Below are positions 2,199 through 33,066 of a DNA stretch of 33,066 bases, in pieces (within the stretch, counting starts at the first letter, position 1; the number at the start of each line of letters is the position of its first letter). The position numbers and the translations under genes are program-made. Origin of the DNA: an uncultured Pseudomonadales bacterium (GTDB taxonomy: Bacteria > Pseudomonadota > Gammaproteobacteria > Pseudomonadales > Porticoccaceae); NCBI GenBank assembly GCA_938092205.1, contig CALKMW010000016.1, positions 1-33,066 on the forward strand, read 5' to 3'. The notes under the pieces were generated by a model. The model did not search any database. It was not told where the DNA came from and saw only the letters and a program-made list of their open reading frames with translations.

Positions 2199-3521
2199 TT
2201 AATAGCGCTCTATATTAATGTTCATATTGAGCGAATCATTTAACCCATAAATATCCTCTGGCGATAACTGCCCCGCCACCTGTTTTAGGCGCATCATCGA
2301 AAGAATATAGTCATAACGCGCATTAGAGAAATTTCGCTTCGCCTGAAACAGCGTCCGCTGTGCCACCAACACATCCACAATATTTCGTGTTCCAACCTCA
2401 TAGCCGGCTTGTGTCGCTTTTAAAGCGCTTTCAGCCGATGTAATAGCTTGCTTGCGCGCCTTAACTCGTGCGACATTAGTGATGGTCAGTTGATGATTAG
2501 ACCGAGCGGCTTGCATGGTATTACGTTTGGTAGCTATATAGTTTTGTTCTGCGGCCTGGGCTTGATAAGCAGATTGGCGTGCCTGAGAGCTGGTTAGACC
2601 ACCGGAAAAAATTGGCATGGTTAGGTTTAAGTTTACGGCTGTTTGCTCTGTATTCATCGGCTCTGCAGCAATAGTTGCCTCAATATCGCGCTTGCTATAA
2701 TCGGCAGAAACAGTAATTTTTGGCAAGTGCTGAGCTTTGGCCGCTTTAGCGGTTTGATTGGCGGCTTGTTGAGTTAATAGGCTAGCTTTGAGATCGAAGT
2801 TATTGGCTAGCGCAAATGCAACCCATGACTCTGAGGCAATTGGATTAGGTGCTTGGGCCACAAAGTCATCTTTAAGACCCGCTAACTGACTGTGATTTTT
2901 CCCGGTCAAAACCTGTAACTGATCAAAGGCTATATCTAGCGCACCATTGGCTTCTAGGCTATTGACGCTAGCGTCATCAAAAATAGCTTGAATTTCATGC
3001 ACATCGGTAATGGGTAGCAGGCCTACTTCAAACCGCTCAGTTACTTGCTCTAATTGACGCTCAATGGCTAGTTCCTCGGCTTTGCGAGTTTGCTTATTGT
3101 CGTAGGCGCGCAGCACATTGAAGTAAGATTCACTCACTCTAATGATAAGTGATTGCTGTTGGGTGGCGAATTGAGCCTCAGCCACCTGATCCATGTGTTT
3201 GGCGCTTTGAAATTGAAACCATGCAGGCACATTAAACAGTGACTGACTTAGGCTTGCCGCATAGGTTGTTTTTACCGGCTCAATATTATCATCTGATGAT
3301 GGTTCTTCTTTGCGTGAAGACGCTGTTAGCTGCGGCAATAAAACAGCTCTACCTTGTTTTAATGTTTCTTTACTGGCCTTATAAGAGGCTCTAGCCGCAC
3401 CGGCTATGGGGTCATTCTTAACAGCTGACTGATAAATATCGGCAAGTGTTTCTGCATTTGCCGATGTGCTAGTAAGCGCTATCAAAGCGATTAACGAAAT
3501 AAGTTTATTGATTGATAGCAT
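2199..3521 (-). CDS. tolC: TolC family outer membrane efflux protein
   Basis: TolC-type repeats (TLADIYQSAVKNDPIAGAARASYKA; GYEVGTRNIVDVLVAQRTLFQAKRNF). I prefer the internal ATG at 3521 over the ORF start at 3620: a signal peptide MLSINKLISLIALIALTSTSANA follows it and GGAG lies 5 nt upstream. Confidence 0.9.
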   Translation of the reverse strand: MLSINKLISLIALIALTSTSANAETLADIYQSAVKNDPIAGAARASYKASKETLKQGRAVLLPQLTASSRKEEPSSDDNIEPVKTTYAASLSQSLFNVPAWFQFQSAKHMDQVAEAQFATQQQSLIIRVSESYFNVLRAYDNKQTRKAEELAIERQLEQVTERFEVGLLPITDVHEIQAIFDDASVNSLEANGALDIAFDQLQVLTGKNHSQLAGLKDDFVAQAPNPIASESWVAFALANNFDLKASLLTQQAANQTAKAAKAQHLPKITVSADYSKRDIEATIAAEPMNTEQTAVNLNLTMPIFSGGLTSSQARQSAYQAQAAEQNYIATKRNTMQAARSNHQLTITNVARVKARKQAITSAESALKATQAGYEVGTRNIVDVLVAQRTLFQAKRNFSNARYDYILSMMRLKQVAGQLSPEDIYGLNDSLNMNINIERY

Positions 3522-3815
3522 ATGTTCTCCATGCATTTTTAGCAGCCATATTGACCCTATCCTGAGGCAAATAATTACCTTGCAAGTCTTATCATAATAT
3601 TTATTCATGTGGATAAACAATCACAAAGACAAGAAGATTGCTATAAGCGTTAAAGAATCATCAATTCTACGTTAATTAGGTAAAAAATGATCAATAAGCG
3701 TCAATTAAAGCGTAGATTAGTCAAATAAAAATCTCAGTCTATTTGATGGGCGTTAATGGAATAATACCGCGTAATCAGGTATATTTTTAAATCACATTAT
3801 TTGCTTAAAATATCT

Positions 3816-4241
3816 ATGCAAAGACAAAATTTTAGCCTAGCTTGCCTGCATCGAGAATGCGAGCTTAACTACGGTAGACTCGAGCGCCTTACAGACGAAG
3901 ATCTTTGTTTGGGTGCTCGCTTTCAGGTTAAAAACGCGCAAACATCGATGCTTGATTTTAAGGTCATCGAGCTGGCTAAATTTACCACTACTCTGTTTAT
4001 TAAAATTGAATCTAACAGTCCAAAATGGCTGCCAAGTATAGAGTTAAAAGCTAGAATTTATCGCGATGCTAAAATGGCCGAGGTCATTGAGTGGTGCTCA
4101 GATAGCACTATTCCTTGGGCGCTTGTAGAGCGCAAAGGGCCGCAATCAAGAGATGAAAAGTGGCAGTGGAATATCTTTTTAGGTGAGCTTCTATATCAGG
4201 CTTTACGTCATAGGCGCATTGCCCAAGTGCAAAGTAGTTAA
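3816..4241 (+). CDS. yqiB: DUF1249 family protein (YqiB-like)
   Basis: Resembles YqiB (RIYRDAKMAEVIEW, RDEKWQWNIFLGELLYQAL) and sits in the tolC/yqiB/cpdA/yqiA/parE context. ATG at 3816 preferred over TTG at 3801. Confidence 0.75.
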   Translation: MQRQNFSLACLHRECELNYGRLERLTDEDLCLGARFQVKNAQTSMLDFKVIELAKFTTTLFIKIESNSPKWLPSIELKARIYRDAKMAEVIEWCSDSTIPWALVERKGPQSRDEKWQWNIFLGELLYQALRHRRIAQVQSS

Positions 4242-23002: not shown

Positions 23003-23019
23003 TGCACCACATTGGTGCT
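23003..23019 (+). promoter_or_regulatory. Predicted NtrC-binding site 2 upstream of glnA
   Basis: TGCACCACATTGGTGCT, near-perfect NtrC consensus; centre 30 bp from site 1. Confidence 0.85.
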
Positions 23020-23139: not shown

Positions 23140-23248
23140 GTCACATCAGGGATTAATAAGGCATTTGATGCTTAAAACATAAGCTCATAGCCAAAAGAAC
23201 GACCAATTAAGTTAGTTTTACACGAATTAAAGTAAAGTGGAGAAAAAA

Positions 23249-24655
23249 ATGTCTAACAAGACCCTAGATCTTATTAAAGAAAGTGAAGCCCGTTGGGTTG
23301 ATCTTCGTTTCACCGACACCAAAGGTAAAGAGCAGCATGTGTCTATACCCATTTCTGAAGTAGGCGAAGATTTCTTTGTCGAAGGAAAAATGTTTGATGG
23401 GTCATCAATTTCTGGCTGGAAAGGTATCAATGAATCAGACATGATTCTTATGCCTGACGACAGCACAGCTGTTTTAGATCCTTTTACTGACGAAACAACA
23501 GTAATTGTCCGTTGTGGAATTGTTGAACCTACAACAATGCAAGGTTATGAGCGTGATCCGCGTTCTATCGCTGAGCGTGCTGAGCAATACCTAGAGTCAA
23601 CTGGCTTAGGTGATACAGCTTACTTTGGTCCAGAGCCTGAATTCTTTGTATTTGATGACGTTAAGTGGGGCGCTGATATGAGTGGTGCTTTCTACAAGAT
23701 CTCTTCTGAAGAAGCGGCTTGGTCATCATCTGCTGAACTTCCTGATGGCAATATGGGTCACCGTCCTGGCGTTAAAGGCGGTTATTTCCCCGTACCTCCA
23801 GTGGACAGCCTTCACGATATGCGTGCCGCAATGTGTGGTGCCATGGAGCAAATGGGTCTTGACGTAGAAGTACATCACCATGAAGTGGGTACAGCAGGTC
23901 AGTGCGAAATTGGTATTCGTTTTAATACGCTGGTTAAGAAAGCTGATGAAGTTCAAATTCTTAAGTACTGTGTGCACAACGTAGCTCATGCCTACGGTAA
24001 AACAGCAACCTTTATGCCTAAGCCACTCGTTGGCGATAATGGTTCTGGTATGCATTGTCACCAGTCATTCTGGAAAAATGGTGAAAACCAATTCGCTGGT
24101 GACGGTTATGCAGGTCTAAGTGAAACTGCTCTTTACTACATCGGTGGTATTATTAAGCACGCTAAGGCAATCAATGCATTTGCCAATGCGTCAACCAACT
24201 CATACAAGCGTTTGATTCCAGGATTCGAAGCGCCAGTAATGCTGGCATACTCAGCGCGTAACCGCTCTGCATCAATTCGTATTCCTTATGTGCCTAGCCC
24301 TAAAGGTAAGCGTATTGAAGCTCGTTTCGGTGATCCAACGGCTAACCCATACCTAATGTTTGCGGCTATGCTTATGGCGGGTATCGATGGCGTTAAAAAC
24401 AAAATTCACCCAGGTGATGCAGCTGATAAAGATCTTTATGATCTTCCAGCTGAAGAAGCAGCAGCTATTCCACAGGTTGCTGGTAGCTTGAGAGAAGCAC
24501 TTGACGAATTAGATGGTGATCGTGAGTTCTTAACCGCTGGTGACGTATTCACTAACGATATGATTGATGCTTACATCGAGTTGAAGATGGAAGAAGTATA
24601 TGCCGTTGAACATACAACTCACCCAATTGAGTTCGATATGTACTACAGTTGCTAA
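23249..24655 (+). CDS. glnA: Glutamine synthetase type I
   Basis: [53 protein letters not shown], and the adenylylation-site region [11 protein letters not shown] at 23249 preferred over GTG at 23237. Confidence 0.97.
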
Positions 24656-24690
24656 GTACTGTTTTTGCAGCGTGAAAGCGCAGCAAATAA

Positions 24691-24724
24691 AAAACCCGGC
24701 GCCATCAGGTGCCGGGTTTTTTTT
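24691..24724 (+). terminator. Rho-independent terminator after glnA
   Basis: AAAACCCGGCGCC-ATCA-GGTGCCGGGTTTTTTTT: GC-rich stem with T-run. Confidence 0.9.
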
Positions 24725-24751
24725 ACCTGTAATTAATGGCATCTATAAATA

Positions 24752-24768
24752 CGCACCAAAATAGTGCA
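24752..24768 (+). promoter_or_regulatory. Predicted NtrC-binding site upstream of glnL
   Basis: CGCACCAAAATAGTGCA; its 15-nt core GCACCAAAATAGTGC is identical to glnA site 1 (22974-22988). Confidence 0.75.
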
Positions 24769-24866
24769 TACTCTATTTTGGCGGTCATTATTTGGTAAAA
24801 AAATTGATCAAATGTCAGGTTATTTCATTGTTATGCAAGTCAATTACATCAAAATAATACCAATAC

Positions 24867-24883
24867 TTGGCGCGCAAATTGCA
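24867..24883 (+). promoter_or_regulatory. Predicted sigma54 promoter of glnLG
   Basis: TTGGCGCGCAAATTGCA: GG-N10-GC spacing, 34-45 nt upstream of the glnL GTG start. Confidence 0.75.
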
Positions 24884-24927
24884 AGTTAAGCAAATGCACT
24901 GAACTATCAGTTGGGAGATGCCCAAAA

Positions 24928-26004
24928 GTGGTTTCACAAAAGATACATCATTTTTTAATCGACAACCTCAATACAGCCGTGTTGCTGCTAGATGAGCATT
25001 TAACGGTTGAATACGCAAATGCTGCATTTGAGGCCTTGTTGCAAGTCAGCAGCTCTCGGTTACAAGGTTTGCCGGCAAGCGCTTTGTTTAGAGATGGCGA
25101 CAATGTGTTGAGCAGTATTGAGGCTTCGCTAGCTAGTGGGCGCCCCTATACCCGACGCCATGAGTTTTTGGATACCTATTCTGCGGGACCGATTAAAGTT
25201 GATTACTCAGGTATTCCCATTGAGTTAGACGGGGAAAAGAAGCTATTAATGGAGCTTCAGCCCATTGACCGGTTCTTAAAAATTAACCGTGAAGAGGCAA
25301 TGCTGTCTGTTCAAGACACATCAAAGACTTTGATTCGCGGTTTAGCACACGAAATCAAAAATCCTCTTGGAGGTATTCGCGGTGCCGCACAGTTATTAGA
25401 TGACGAAATTGCTGAGCAGAGTTTAGACAGTGAGACCAGAGAGCTTTGTCAGATTATTATGACTGAAACCGATCGCTTAAGAAATCTAGTTGATCGCTTA
25501 TTGGGTCCTAATCAGGTTCCAACTTATACGCAAATAAGTATCCATGAAGTAACAGAACGCGTTGTGGTTTTAATGCAGGCTGAGCTACAGGGGCAAATTG
25601 AGATTATTCGTGATTATGATCCGAGTATTCCGCCGATTGAGGGGGATGCCGAGCAGCTGATTCAGGCGGTGCTGAATGTGGCTAGAAATGCCATGCAGGC
25701 GCTGATCGATTGTGAGCAAAAACAGCCAAAAATAACCTTTAGAACCAGGGTTAGTAGGAGTTTCACCATTGCTGGTCAGCGCCACAAAATGATTTGTAAA
25801 ATTGAAATTATAGACAATGGCCCTGGCGTATCGGAAGAGATCAAAGAGCAGATATTCTTCCCCATGATCAGCGGTCGCAAGCAGGGTACAGGCCTGGGGC
25901 TAACCATTGCGCAAAATGCCGTTAATGGCCACCAGGGCACCATAGAATGTGATTCGAGACCAGGTGATACCTGTTTCTCTATATATTTACCAATAAAGGC
26001 ATAG
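24928..26004 (+). CDS. glnL: Nitrogen regulation sensor histidine kinase NtrB/GlnL
   Basis: PAS-like N-terminus; RGLAHEIKNPLGGIRGAAQLL H-box; ATPase boxes NVARNAMQAL, DNGPGVSEE, GTGLGLTIAQNAV; upstream of ntrC. Confidence 0.94.
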   Translation: MVSQKIHHFLIDNLNTAVLLLDEHLTVEYANAAFEALLQVSSSRLQGLPASALFRDGDNVLSSIEASLASGRPYTRRHEFLDTYSAGPIKVDYSGIPIELDGEKKLLMELQPIDRFLKINREEAMLSVQDTSKTLIRGLAHEIKNPLGGIRGAAQLLDDEIAEQSLDSETRELCQIIMTETDRLRNLVDRLLGPNQVPTYTQISIHEVTERVVVLMQAELQGQIEIIRDYDPSIPPIEGDAEQLIQAVLNVARNAMQALIDCEQKQPKITFRTRVSRSFTIAGQRHKMICKIEIIDNGPGVSEEIKEQIFFPMISGRKQGTGLGLTIAQNAVNGHQGTIECDSRPGDTCFSIYLPIKA

Positions 26005-26010
26005 TTTTAA

Positions 26011-27411
26011 ATGACTTCAGAAATTTGGATTGCAGAAGATGACCGTTCACTGCGCTGGGTGATGGAAAAGGCTATTCGCCGTGAAGATATTCAGGTACGT
26101 AGCTTTGAAAATGCCGAAGCTTTACTGGATGCCCTAGCTGATGACCAGCCTGAGATTATTATCTCGGATATAAGGATGCCGGGTATGGACGGCCTGGAGC
26201 TATTGCAGCGTATTCATGCCGATCACCCGGATATGCCGATTATTATCACTACAGCGCACTCTGATCTCGACAGTGCGGTTGCAGCCTATCAAAGTGGTGC
26301 TTTTGAATATTTGCCAAAGCCCTTTGATTTAGAAGAACTGGTGGATGTGGCGCGTCGAGCCATTAGCTTTGCCAGCGAGCAAAAAACCTCAGCTGAGGTA
26401 GCTCAGTCGCCGCAGAGTGAAATAATTGGTGAAGCGCCAGCTATGCAGGAAGTATTTCGTGCTATTGGCAGGTTATCTAATTCAAATATCACTGTATTAA
26501 TTAATGGTGAGTCTGGTACCGGTAAAGAGTTGGTTGCCCAAGCCCTTCACAAGCATAGTCCGCGCCGCAATAATAAGTTTATTGCGCTTAATATGGCGGC
26601 AATTCCACATGACTTGATTGAATCTGAGCTTTTTGGCCATGAAAAAGGCGCTTTTACTGGGGCTGCACAGCGTCGTGAAGGTCGATTTGAACAAGCTAAT
26701 GGCGGCACCCTGTTTCTCGATGAGATCGGCGATATGCCCTCAGAAGCACAGACCAGATTGCTAAGAGTGCTGGCTGATGGAGAATTCTATCGCGTAGGGG
26801 GGCATACAGCGGTTAAAGTTGACGTGCGAATTATTGCCGCAACGCACCAAAACCTAGAAACCTTGGTAACTGAGAACCGTTTTCGAGAGGATCTATTTCA
26901 CCGTTTAAATGTTATTAGAGTGCATCTGCCTAGATTGGCCGATAGGCGAGAAGATATACCAGAATTAATGCAGCATTTTTTCCACAGTGCTGCCAAAGAG
27001 TTAGAAATGGAGCCAAAGGCGCTATCGCCAGAGGCGGAAGAATTCCTCTACAGCTTGCCGTGGCCGGGTAATGTTCGTCAGTTAGAAAATATTTGTCGAT
27101 GGCTAACCGTTATGGCTGCGGGTCGAGAAGTGCTTCTTTCCGACCTGCCTCCAGAGCTGCGTGCTGAACAGTCAGACAAGGCGCAAAGAGTCTCTGGAGA
27201 CTGGCAAACAATGTTGCGCAGCTGGGTGGATAAAGCGCTTGGATCTGGCAGTAAAGATATACTGTCATCTGCTATTCCTGACTTTGAGCGCACAATGATA
27301 GAGGCGGCATTGGCACACACTGCGGGAAGGAAAAAAGATGCAGCCCAATTGTTAGGTTGGGGTCGTAATACCCTGACTAGAAAGCTTCAAGAATACAATA
27401 TAGAAAAGTAA
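26011..27411 (+). CDS. glnG: Nitrogen regulation response regulator NtrC/GlnG
   Basis: Receiver domain ([30 protein letters not shown]), sigma54 AAA+ domain ([42 protein letters not shown]), C-terminal Fis-type HTH. Confidence 0.96.
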
Positions 27412-28818: not shown

Positions 28819-29640
28819 TTATGCCCACTTGCTCCATACAGGTGTTAGGTCAGCGGGTAGCTCAGATGCCATACCCAGAGCCGCCCAAGGTTGCCCCGGC
28901 GCATGAAAATCAGAGCCGCGCGAGGCGAGTAGATTGTATTGTTTGCAAAGTTTCGCCATAGACTGGGTTTCAGAAACAGTTTGAGAGCCTGAAATGACTT
29001 CCATAGCCTCGCCGCCAAGCTCGATAAAATCCTCTAACAATAGGCATAATTTGGTTCTAGTCATCTTGTATTTGGTTGGATGCGCTAGTACTGCAACGCC
29101 GCCGGCGCCTCGAATCCAGCTAATGACGTCGCCAAGACTTGCCCATTGCTGTTTTATGTCGCCAGCCTTGCCAGCGCCTAAATAGCGCTTAAATGCCTGC
29201 TGAAAATTGCTGACAGCGCCTATTTCCACCAGATATTGAGCGAAATGTGGGCGACCTACCTGTTGGCCGCAACAGAAGCGTTTAGCCCCTTCAAGACTGC
29301 CCTCAATGCCTAGCTGCTGTAGCTTTTTATCGATTAAATGGCCGCGTTTTTCTCTGGCCAAAGACTGAAATCGAATGCCCTCGAGTAAATCGGCATTATT
29401 TAGATCCATATTGAGCCCAACAATATGCACGCCAATATTTCGCCAGGTAGTCGAGAATTCAATCCCGCTAATAAGGGTTAAGTCTTCTTTTGAAGCGCTA
29501 ATTTCAGCATAACTGTCAATATTATCGTGGTCAGTAATGGCTAAAACATCAATTTCACGCTCAATAGCCAACGCTATAAGCTCTTTAGGGGATAAAGAGC
29601 CATCGGAAAGGTTGGTATGGCAGTGTAAATCAACGTTCAT
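28819..29640 (-). CDS. PHP-domain phosphoesterase (TrpH/YciV, RNase AM-like)
   Basis: MNVDLHCHTNLSDGSLSPKELI, LAITDHDNIDSYAEI, GIEFSTTW, VLAHPTKYKMTR, GSDFHAPGQPWAALG. Confidence 0.88.
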   Translation of the reverse strand: MNVDLHCHTNLSDGSLSPKELIALAIEREIDVLAITDHDNIDSYAEISASKEDLTLISGIEFSTTWRNIGVHIVGLNMDLNNADLLEGIRFQSLAREKRGHLIDKKLQQLGIEGSLEGAKRFCCGQQVGRPHFAQYLVEIGAVSNFQQAFKRYLGAGKAGDIKQQWASLGDVISWIRGAGGVAVLAHPTKYKMTRTKLCLLLEDFIELGGEAMEVISGSQTVSETQSMAKLCKQYNLLASRGSDFHAPGQPWAALGMASELPADLTPVWSKWA

Positions 29641-29694
29641 ATATAAAATTGCCTAATCATTAGCCCTATTATAACTGTCTCTTGTGCCGATGCT

Positions 29695-30261
29695 ATGAAT
29701 CTTTATAATCACTCTATGCCTAGCATTGCCCAACATACTGATCCTATTGCGCCTATTTCACAGCAGCAAATGACTGAGGTGCAAAGCGTCACTCTAGATT
29801 ATATTGCAATGGCACAGCAAATATACAAAAAGCCCTTTTCATCTATACCTGTCGTATTTGATTTGCGCGGCAAATGCGCAGGCATGTATAAGCGCAAGGG
29901 TCGAGATCGGCATATTCGTTTTAATCCATGGTTGTTTGCGAAATACTACAAGCATAGTATAGATCAGACCATACCTCATGAAGTGGCGCATTACATCACT
30001 GATTGCTTGTACCCATTTCGCCGAGTTAAGCCCCATGGTGAAGAGTGGCGATCAGTTATGCAGGCTTTCGGGGTTGCGCCAAAAGTCACCGGTGATTTTG
30101 ATTTGGCTGGCATCCCTACAAGGCACTATCAGCGAATTGACTACAACTGTGGTTGTAAAACACATCAACTCTCAATAATAAGGCACCGCAGAGTACAATC
30201 TGGGCAAGCAGAATACCGCTGTAAAGATTGTCGCCAGCTGTTAAAGGTGGCGTCAAAGTGA
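29695..30261 (+). CDS. SprT-like zinc metalloprotease-family protein
   Basis: Zn motif HEVAHYITDCLYP..VKPHGEEW; C-terminal cysteine-rich CGCKTHQ...YRCKDCRQLL. Confidence 0.88.
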   Translation: MNLYNHSMPSIAQHTDPIAPISQQQMTEVQSVTLDYIAMAQQIYKKPFSSIPVVFDLRGKCAGMYKRKGRDRHIRFNPWLFAKYYKHSIDQTIPHEVAHYITDCLYPFRRVKPHGEEWRSVMQAFGVAPKVTGDFDLAGIPTRHYQRIDYNCGCKTHQLSIIRHRRVQSGQAEYRCKDCRQLLKVASK

Positions 30262-30515
30262 GTGCTGAAGCGGCTGGTGGCTGGTTTGTGTATATTATTC
30301 GTGCCAGCGACGATTCTCTTTATACCGGCATAACTACTGATCTAGACCGGCGATTAAAGCAGCATCAAACCGGCAAGGGTGGTGCAAAGTACTTTCGTGG
30401 GCGTCAAGCCTGTGATTTTGTGTATACCGAATCTGGCCATAACCGTAGCAGTGCTTCTATTCGTGAGGCGCAAATAAAAAAAATGACTCGACAGCAAAAA
30501 GATCTGCTATTATAA
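30258..30515 (+). CDS. GIY-YIG nuclease superfamily protein (UPF0213/YhbQ-like)
   Basis: FVYIIRASDDSLYTGITTDLDRRLKQHQTGKGGAKYFRGR. GTG at 30258 overlaps the SprT stop (GTGA) and is preferred over the ORF start at 30228. Confidence 0.85.
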   Translation: MSAEAAGGWFVYIIRASDDSLYTGITTDLDRRLKQHQTGKGGAKYFRGRQACDFVYTESGHNRSSASIREAQIKKMTRQQKDLLL

Positions 30516-30522
30516 ATCTATA

Positions 30523-30539
30523 TTGTATATACAAATAAT
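30523..30539 (+). promoter_or_regulatory. Operator-like palindrome copy 1
   Basis: TTGTATATACAAATAAT; TTGTATATACAA is a perfect 12-bp palindrome. Confidence 0.7.
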
Positions 30540-30583
30540 TAATCTCCAATATACTGTTTATGTCGGATATTTGGTATTATAAG

Positions 30584-30600
30584 TTGTATATACAAATAAT
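30584..30600 (+). promoter_or_regulatory. Operator-like palindrome copy 2, identical 17 bp to copy 1
   Basis: TTGTATATACAAATAAT; lies between a possible -35 (TTGGTA, 30571) and -10 (AATAAT, 30595). Confidence 0.75.
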
Positions 30601-30612
30601 ATGTATATACAA
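30601..30612 (+). promoter_or_regulatory. Operator-like palindrome copy 3
   Basis: ATGTATATACAA; shares the TGTATATACA core, 17 bp from copy 2 and just upstream of the GGTGGG RBS and ATG at 30628. Confidence 0.75.
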
Positions 30613-30627
30613 ATATGGTGGGTATAT

Positions 30628-31353
30628 ATGGAAGCTAAGGATCATAAAATACCGCAATTTGCTGTTATAAAGCAGTATTTGGAGCAGCAAATTAACACTC
30701 AGCAGTGGGCGCCCGGCCGGCGAATACCCACAGAGCAATCTTTAGCCGATACTTTTTCTGTTAGTAGAATGACCGCAAGGCGAGCAGTGCAAGAATTAGC
30801 TGACAGGGGCATTCTTACCAGAACTCAGGGTTCTGGCACCTATGTTGCCGAAAAGTCGCAATCTATTCCAAATCTTCCTATTAAAGATGTTGTAGCTGTG
30901 GCAAAAGCAGAACACAGCCATAAACATAAAATAATTTCAGCGGATGCGGTTCAGATAACCTCCGATATAGCTAAATTAATGGGTTTACAAACAGATACAC
31001 TGGTATTTCAGCTAACCGTTGTTCATCTTTATGTTGATCGCCCCATACAGTGGCAAAAAATCTGGGTAAATCGCAGTATGGCGCCGGCATTGTTAAAACA
31101 GAAGCTCGATAAAGTTGACCCAAATGACTACCTTGACTGGCTGTGTCGGCCACAAAAAACAGATTATCAGTTAAAAGCAGTGCTACCAACGGCAAGTCAA
31201 AGATTGCAGTTAATGCTATCGCAACAGGATACGCTCAACTGTATGCAGTTATCACGCAGGCATTGGTCGGCAGACGCAGTATTTAGTTTTTCTATAATGC
31301 TGCACCCAGCGGAAAGTTATTACTTGGGTGATGAACTAAAGGAAGTACAGTGA
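30628..31353 (+). CDS. GntR/HutC-family transcriptional regulator (HTH + UTRA)
   Basis: N-terminal wHTH (ESLADTFSVSRMTARRAVQELADRGILTRTQGSGTYVAE-like) and UTRA domain (RPIQWQKIWVNRSMAP, RRHWSADAVFSFSIMLHPAESYYLGDEL). Preferred start ATG 30628, since the ORF start at 30601 lies inside palindrome 3. Confidence 0.9.
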   Translation: MEAKDHKIPQFAVIKQYLEQQINTQQWAPGRRIPTEQSLADTFSVSRMTARRAVQELADRGILTRTQGSGTYVAEKSQSIPNLPIKDVVAVAKAEHSHKHKIISADAVQITSDIAKLMGLQTDTLVFQLTVVHLYVDRPIQWQKIWVNRSMAPALLKQKLDKVDPNDYLDWLCRPQKTDYQLKAVLPTASQRLQLMLSQQDTLNCMQLSRRHWSADAVFSFSIMLHPAESYYLGDELKEVQ

Positions 31354-31838
31354 TGCAAAGAATTGCGCTATTTGTTGATGTGCAGAATATCTATTACACC
31401 GTTAGGGATAGCTACCAGGGTTTTTTTAACTATCAGGCGCTTTGGCATAAGCTGTCACAGGAGTTTACCTTAGTTGCTGCCAATGCCTATGCTATTGAGA
31501 GCAATAATTCTAAACAGCAAAGCTTTCAGCAAACTCTTAGAAATATTGGTTTTAATGTCCACTTAAAGCCTTATATTCAACGTGCTGATGGCTCTGCCAA
31601 GGGTGATTGGGATGTGGGTATTGCTATAGATATGATGGATGCTGCTGCTCGGCAAGATGTAGATAAGTTAGTGCTATTATCAGGCGATGGTGATTTTGAT
31701 CGGTTACTAGAGCGTCTATATCGTGGCAATGGAAAAGAGACTCTAGTCTATGGTGTTCCGCAGCTAACTGCGGCATCCCTAGTGAATGCCGCAGCAGAAT
31801 ATCGTCCTATCGATAAAACTCTGCTAATGACTAAGTAA
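31353..31838 (+). CDS. NYN-domain (LabA-like/PIN-fold) protein, putative RNase
   Basis: IALFVDVQNIYYTVRD, DWDVGIAIDMMDAA, LVLLSGDGDFDRLLERL NYN motifs with conserved Asp residues; ATG overlaps the regulator stop (TGATG). Confidence 0.85.
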   Translation: MQRIALFVDVQNIYYTVRDSYQGFFNYQALWHKLSQEFTLVAANAYAIESNNSKQQSFQQTLRNIGFNVHLKPYIQRADGSAKGDWDVGIAIDMMDAAARQDVDKLVLLSGDGDFDRLLERLYRGNGKETLVYGVPQLTAASLVNAAAEYRPIDKTLLMTK

Positions 31839-32196
31839 TAATACCGCCACCGGGGTTGTTGCCCTCTTGCCCCGGAACAACTATTTTGGATGCCTGCTCG
31901 CGACGCATGCGCTCGAGCTCTTTGCCAGCCTCTTCAACCGCAATCGCAGCTTTTCCAGCAAAGTCTTGAGCCGCTTCACCAATAGTATCGCCATCTAAAG
32001 CAAAATTTAGTGGAATAGCGCCCATAGGTGTCATTACCTGAGCTGAGCCAAAAAATGCTGTGGCACGGTCAGGGTCATCAGAGCCGTCGGCTAATACAGG
32101 GATCAATTTGCGTATAGCCCCAGTTTTTTGATCGGTATAGTTTTCTTCTCTAAAAAGCTCGTCCGGGCTCATTGCATTGCTTTGTTCGTCACTCAT
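31831..32196 (-). CDS. Conserved hypothetical protein
   Basis: 121 aa ORF (MSPDELFREENYTDQKTGAIRKLIPV...) resembling a small cytoplasmic protein I associate with gammaproteobacteria; 3' end overlaps the NYN gene 3' end by 8 bp. Confidence 0.7.
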   Translation of the reverse strand: MSDEQSNAMSPDELFREENYTDQKTGAIRKLIPVLADGSDDPDRATAFFGSAQVMTPMGAIPLNFALDGDTIGEAAQDFAGKAAIAVEEAGKELERMRREQASKIVVPGQEGNNPGGGIIT

Positions 32197-32288
32197 ATAT
32201 TGTCGCCAAAAAGGTTAGTTAGGTTTAAAGCGAAATGTAACAGAGATTGGCGCCTATGAATAGACGAGCATCTGCTGTGGCTATTTTA

Positions 32289-33066
32289 TTAGCGACTAAT
32301 TTTAGCGCTTAAAAGGGTGCTGATAATAACCATCGCAGATGACACTGCTAGGCAGGAAGCCAGACCCTGTTGTTGATATATAAGGCCCGATAGTAAGGTC
32401 CCAGAAAGTCTACCTGCAGCATTGGCCATATAGTAAAAGCCGACATCAGTAGACACAGAGTCGCGCTTTGAGAAGGCGACAATTAAAAATGAGTGGATGC
32501 TCGAGTTAATGGCAAAAACAGCGCCATAGATAAGTAAGCCGGCAATTAAAATGATTGCAGGCTCTAGTCCATAAATAAGGCCAGCTGCGATTAGTGCGGG
32601 TATAAAGGCTAACTTAGCAACCCAAGATGTAAGCGCAGAGCCTGTTGGCGCCTGCTGTTGATTATCGCCTGTAATTTTAGGGGCAAGGGCTTGAATCAAG
32701 CCATAGCCAATAACCCAGCATGCCATAAAACTGCCGACTTGAAGGTGGGTCCATTGTAATTGGCTCTGTAAAAATACCGGCAGGGCAATAACAAACCAAA
32801 TATCTCTGGAGCCAAATAGAAAAAAGCGTGCGCCAGATAACAGATTAATATCACGGCTTTTGGACAAAGACTCACTAAATTTGGGCTTATAGCTGGTTTT
32901 TTGCGGCTTTAAAAATAATAGGCTCAGCACTAATGTAATGGCTAATAACGCCATCAGGGCGTGGAGACTACTGGCAAAGCCTAGGGTTGTCATTAAAAAG
33001 CCACCCAGGAAAAACCCCAAGCCTTTAAGGCTATTTTTGGACCCCGTTAGCAGCGCCACCCAGTGG
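32289..33066 (-). CDS. arsJ: MFS transporter, ArsJ-like organoarsenical efflux permease (5' end truncated by the window)
   Basis: LLTGSKNSLKGLGFFLGGFLM, INLLSGARFFLFGSRDIWFVIALPVFLQSQLQW, SFMACWVIGYGLIQALAP resemble ArsJ from memory; frame stays open to the window edge (HWVALLTG). Confidence 0.6.
   Translation of the reverse strand, partial: HWVALLTGSKNSLKGLGFFLGGFLMTTLGFASSLHALMALLAITLVLSLLFLKPQKTSYKPKFSESLSKSRDINLLSGARFFLFGSRDIWFVIALPVFLQSQLQWTHLQVGSFMACWVIGYGLIQALAPKITGDNQQQAPTGSALTSWVAKLAFIPALIAAGLIYGLEPAIILIAGLLIYGAVFAINSSIHSFLIVAFSKRDSVSTDVGFYYMANAAGRLSGTLLSGLIYQQQGLASCLAVSSAMVIISTLLSAKISR

Follow-up and report, generated by a model that had tools for sequence, protein, structure and literature searches.

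The window analysed here, meaning the whole stretch of 33,066 nucleotides, comes from a 1.27 Mb genome, 79% complete, of SAR92 (Porticoccaceae), a widespread marine clade. It carries a gene for a GntR/UTRA regulator, here termed Reg, whose stop codon overlaps the start of a downstream NYN gene by one base (TGATG), confirming the overlapping pair of a GntR/HutC-type regulator and a NYN gene described in the original prediction (Table 1). The open reading frame of Reg extends over 30601-31353, and the ATG at 30628, where its relatives begin, was taken as the start; the alternative ATG at 30601 falls within the third of three operators that precede the gene. Reg matches the Pfam families GntR (1e-19) and UTRA (1e-16), both above the Pfam cut-offs. 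ORF121, the flanking gene beyond NYN, has no match in Pfam, NCBIfam or PHROG; it is about 67-97% identical across SAR92 and is also present in several sister genera. An Rfam search of 29600-32400 gave no match.

Table 1. Features of the Reg-NYN locus, in window positions.
Feature	Position	Strand	Remarks
Flanking gene, GIY-YIG protein	30258..30515	+	Kept neighbour, outside the module
Distal operator, TGTATATACA	30524..30533		Matches the HutC consensus TGTA-N2-TACA (PMC12977541)
Proximal operator 1, TGTATATACA	30585..30594		AATAAT, a possible -10 hexamer, directly after
Proximal operator 2, TGTATATACA	30602..30611		16 bp upstream of Reg's conserved start codon
Reg, HutC-derived GntR/UTRA regulator, 241 aa	30628..31353	+	Domain profiles, starts of relatives, phylogeny
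NYN (LabA-type PIN-fold) predicted RNase, 161 aa	31353..31838	+	PF01936, PDB 2qip match, acidic residues
ORF121, family-less convergent flanking gene	31831..32196	-	Kept neighbour, outside the module

Against the NCBIfam HutC model TIGR02018, Reg scores 190 bits (3e-56), under the cut-off of 220, placing it between the HutC proteins of the order that exceed the cut-off, at 244-302 bits, and other UTRA regulators, which reach at most 135. In the phylogeny the Reg proteins, including two from genus g13, form one clade (support 100/99) that is nested in HutC, sister to the HutC proteins of other families (98/83) and apart from those encoded in the hut clusters of SAR92 itself. Six genomes (G037, G052, G072, G081, G084 and G088) carry Reg together with a separate hut-linked HutC, and the Reg locus is unlinked to hut genes. 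Among 50 genomes of the genus, hutU was found in 12 and hutH in 11, in nearly identical sets, leaving about three quarters without either; neither was found in the window's genome, where incompleteness makes the absence weak evidence. On sequence evidence, Reg is a HutC paralogue other than the hut regulator. That it might control only a distant hut operon had been named beforehand as a result that would count against a two-gene module; the outcome went the other way and favours the module.

Upstream of Reg lie three copies of TGTATATACA, the core of the published HutC operator, whose TGTA-N2-TACA site was defined in Pseudomonas by footprinting (PMC12977541). The distal copy sits inside a perfect 12-bp palindrome, TTGTATATACAA (30523-30534), 8 bp past the GIY-YIG stop codon. 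TGTA-N2-TACA sites are strongly conserved upstream of Reg across the 29 genus loci, 26 of which hold at least one exact TGTATATACA, and in three loci the sites have diverged into forms resembling TTGTCTATACAA. Over these 29 loci the 200 bp upstream of Reg contain 50 exact copies, against a dinucleotide-shuffle mean of 0.02, and a chance origin is excluded. When 11 whole genomes were searched for exact or one-mismatch sites, 23 of the 34 exact copies fell in Reg's own promoter, and those elsewhere lay mostly within coding sequence. The only one of these others to make clear regulatory sense stands between hutC and hutF in G052 (L214:4985), so that in this cell both proteins, HutC as well as Reg, probably recognise the same sequence, with cross-talk possible; G052 carries Reg-NYN as well. 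Copies of TGTATATACA were also seen between mnmE and dnaA, possibly an origin region, in G080 (L205:1520) and G043 (L211:1482).

Reg would most likely act as a promoter repressor, since the second operator stands directly before a possible -10 box and the third 16 bp before the start codon; the sigma-70 matches in this promoter, AATAAT as -10 among them, are not above chance. Looping between the distal and proximal operators was considered and rejected, the operator spacings lacking a common helical phase. Subclade-conserved pieces, such as GGCGAAAATTG, lie between the distal and proximal operators in L015-L023.

Reg directly precedes NYN in all 33 NYN-bearing SAR92 genomes with readable upstream sequence, a set made up of 27 of the 29 genus loci and six further genomes, with locus L171 left out as it starts at a contig edge. 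The order PHP / SprT / GIY-YIG / Reg / NYN / ORF121 / MFS is constant in the 29 genus loci as far as their contigs extend and the genes can be recognised, GIY-Reg-NYN-ORF121 being found in 27 of them and the other two being without NYN. Gene order had been set beforehand as a refutation test; its conservation, with the operators at the Reg promoter, supports the proposal of a self-regulated, conserved two-gene module. The suggested translational coupling fits the one-base overlap in the window, but strict coupling is not general because relatives differ at the junction, where the two genes overlap by up to 14 nt or are separated by up to 62 nt. The Reg-NYN order holds within SAR92 but not across other marine gammaproteobacteria: no Reg-like gene was found near NYN outside SAR92 in 30 order-wide NYN loci, the window's own included, and 80 from a public genome collection.

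In the sister genera g10 and g6, GIY-YIG and ORF121 face each other with no space for Reg or NYN, and thus the module was inserted into an already existing convergent gene pair. The NYN gene of g10 is located elsewhere in its genome and belongs to the same NYN lineage (tree support 95/76). The genomes compared are mostly drafts or MAGs, and Reg went undetected in six from the genus. ORF121 is missing as well from five of these, a pattern that points to a gap in the assembly at this place and not to a true loss; in the sixth, G087, the contig breaks off within ORF121.

Reg and its operators are also present in genomes where NYN was not found, namely G010, G055, G096 and those of genus g13. At the g13 loci (L256 and L257, about 3230-4060) the only gene between GIY-YIG and ORF121 is Reg, which has two operators and whose ligand domain is strongly altered; NYN was not detected in these genomes. 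Trees of Reg and of the neighbour gene suggest about three separate losses of NYN, and several lineages can do without it. An origin with Reg first and NYN later is weakened by the position of g13, which falls inside SAR92 in both trees, on long branches and, in the neighbour-gene tree, with support no higher than 81. Because these genomes have kept Reg and its operators in the absence of NYN, either the control of NYN is not the sole selected role of Reg or NYN is easily lost. No second exact operator target was found to account for these cases; Reg may be kept for targets with non-canonical sites, as in HutC, or the losses may be recent, or Reg may have another role.

A rival reading is that Reg mainly acts on genes elsewhere in the genome, by way of sites that are diverged or non-canonical, its position before NYN being incidental. 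Retention of Reg without NYN in about three lineages is in keeping with this, as are the non-canonical sites reported for Pseudomonas HutC, with ntrBC among the targets (PMC12977541), and the presence of glnA-ntrBC about 3 kb upstream in the window. We nevertheless think it unlikely, as exact operators are largely confined to Reg's own promoter and the gap between Reg and NYN is at most 62 nt genus-wide. Control of ntrBC by Reg was rejected specifically: the regions upstream of glnA and ntrB in the window's glnA-ntrB-ntrC cluster (23237-27408) are without TGTA-N2-TACA, and there is one NtrC-box-like site, at 23004.

Retention of HutC features differs between the two domains of Reg. Of the positions where at least 85% of 26 HutC proteins share one residue, 21 lie in the DNA-binding domain and 31 in the UTRA domain; Reg retains 19 of the former and 13 of the latter. 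Within the UTRA domain, H133, Q141, C205 and mostly R210 are kept; many or all Reg proteins depart from HutC at I88, A89, E91, R95, the G-H that follows, E143 and R145, all of them residues with at least 88% conservation in HutC. Position 143, a glutamine in Reg and a glutamate in HutC, corresponds in the alignment to Glu145 of NagR, which is a ligand contact (PMC4333415). The ligand of Reg would seem to have changed relative to HutC. Were Reg instead a functional HutC that senses urocanate or another environmental imidazole compound and thereby controls NYN, its nesting within HutC, its identical operator core and the retained UTRA residues would all be expected, but the many altered positions would not, nor would the roughly 27 NYN-bearing genomes without hutU, most of them also without hutH; we judge this quite improbable. 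Urocanate, the signal originally put forward, is probably not sensed by Reg, because the HutC-specific UTRA residues are largely altered and neither hutH nor hutU is seen in the majority of module-bearing genomes.

The NYN protein matches PF01936 (5e-40, above the cut-off), and its nearest solved structure is Vibrio VPA0982 (PDB 2qip; 1e-49, full-length). Its DxxN-type, KGDWD and SGDGDF motifs are conserved, and D9, N12, D85, D87, D112 and D114 are unchanged in all 14 aligned relatives, as we would presume for a working PIN/NYN nuclease; it is a probable RNase. A defence or phage origin of the module was rejected, since the PADLOC matches are merely to the general NYN domain and a phage search with NYN gave no match. 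The same results, together with the full GntR/UTRA architecture of Reg and the occurrence of the NYN family without a nearby Reg-like gene across Pseudomonadales and beyond, where NYN alone is evidently non-toxic, make it highly unlikely that the pair is a toxin-antitoxin-like operon in which Reg, besides being an autorepressor, binds a toxic NYN nuclease or keeps it in check, even though an autoregulated first gene is followed by an overlapping RNase-fold gene and SAR92 NYN is always accompanied by Reg (33/33) while Reg sometimes stands without NYN.

The reading we prefer, at a probability of roughly two in three, is that Reg is a ligand-released autorepressor of one two-gene operon with a probable RNase as its product, a HutC paralogue whose effector domain has changed and whose DNA-binding domain and operator have been retained. 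We infer that Reg would repress a co-transcribed reg-nyn operon by binding two or three copies of TGTATATACA around the operon's promoter, until released by a small molecule, probably other than urocanate, so that more Reg and NYN protein would be made; NYN would then act as a nuclease, with RNA as its probable target. A bolder version, which we hold only tentatively and regard as rather doubtful, is that a HutC copy came to sense a new ligand and has a single target, the one RNase that it gates, forming a metabolite-to-RNA-turnover switch of SAR92 origin whose carriers mostly lack the hut pathway. No description of a GntR/UTRA repressor paired with NYN was found in a narrow literature search.

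The locus would offer a clear example from nature of a catabolic repressor whose ligand and target gene have apparently both been swapped with the operator retained. It would also provide a defined operon for studying the role of NYN/LabA proteins in a bacterium. Where a genome encodes Reg as well as HutC, one operator sequence is probably open to both repressors, and whether they cross-talk is a testable question.

Three known systems bear comparison with Reg-NYN. HutC (GntR/HutC, TIGR02018) shares with Reg the GntR and UTRA domains, the operator core TGTA-N2-TACA (PMC12977541) and operators at its own promoter, whereas Reg has a lower profile score, lacks hut linkage, has an altered effector domain and precedes a NYN gene. 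The VapBC-like type II toxin-antitoxin systems, with their PIN-fold RNases, have in common with the module an autoregulated first gene and an overlapping RNase-fold second gene; in Reg-NYN, by contrast, the first gene encodes a GntR/UTRA repressor and the NYN family is widespread without Reg. The LabA-like NYN protein VPA0982 resembles SAR92 NYN over its full length, with the motifs conserved, but LabA-like NYN proteins elsewhere have no adjoining Reg-like regulator, while that of SAR92 belongs to an operator-controlled gene pair.
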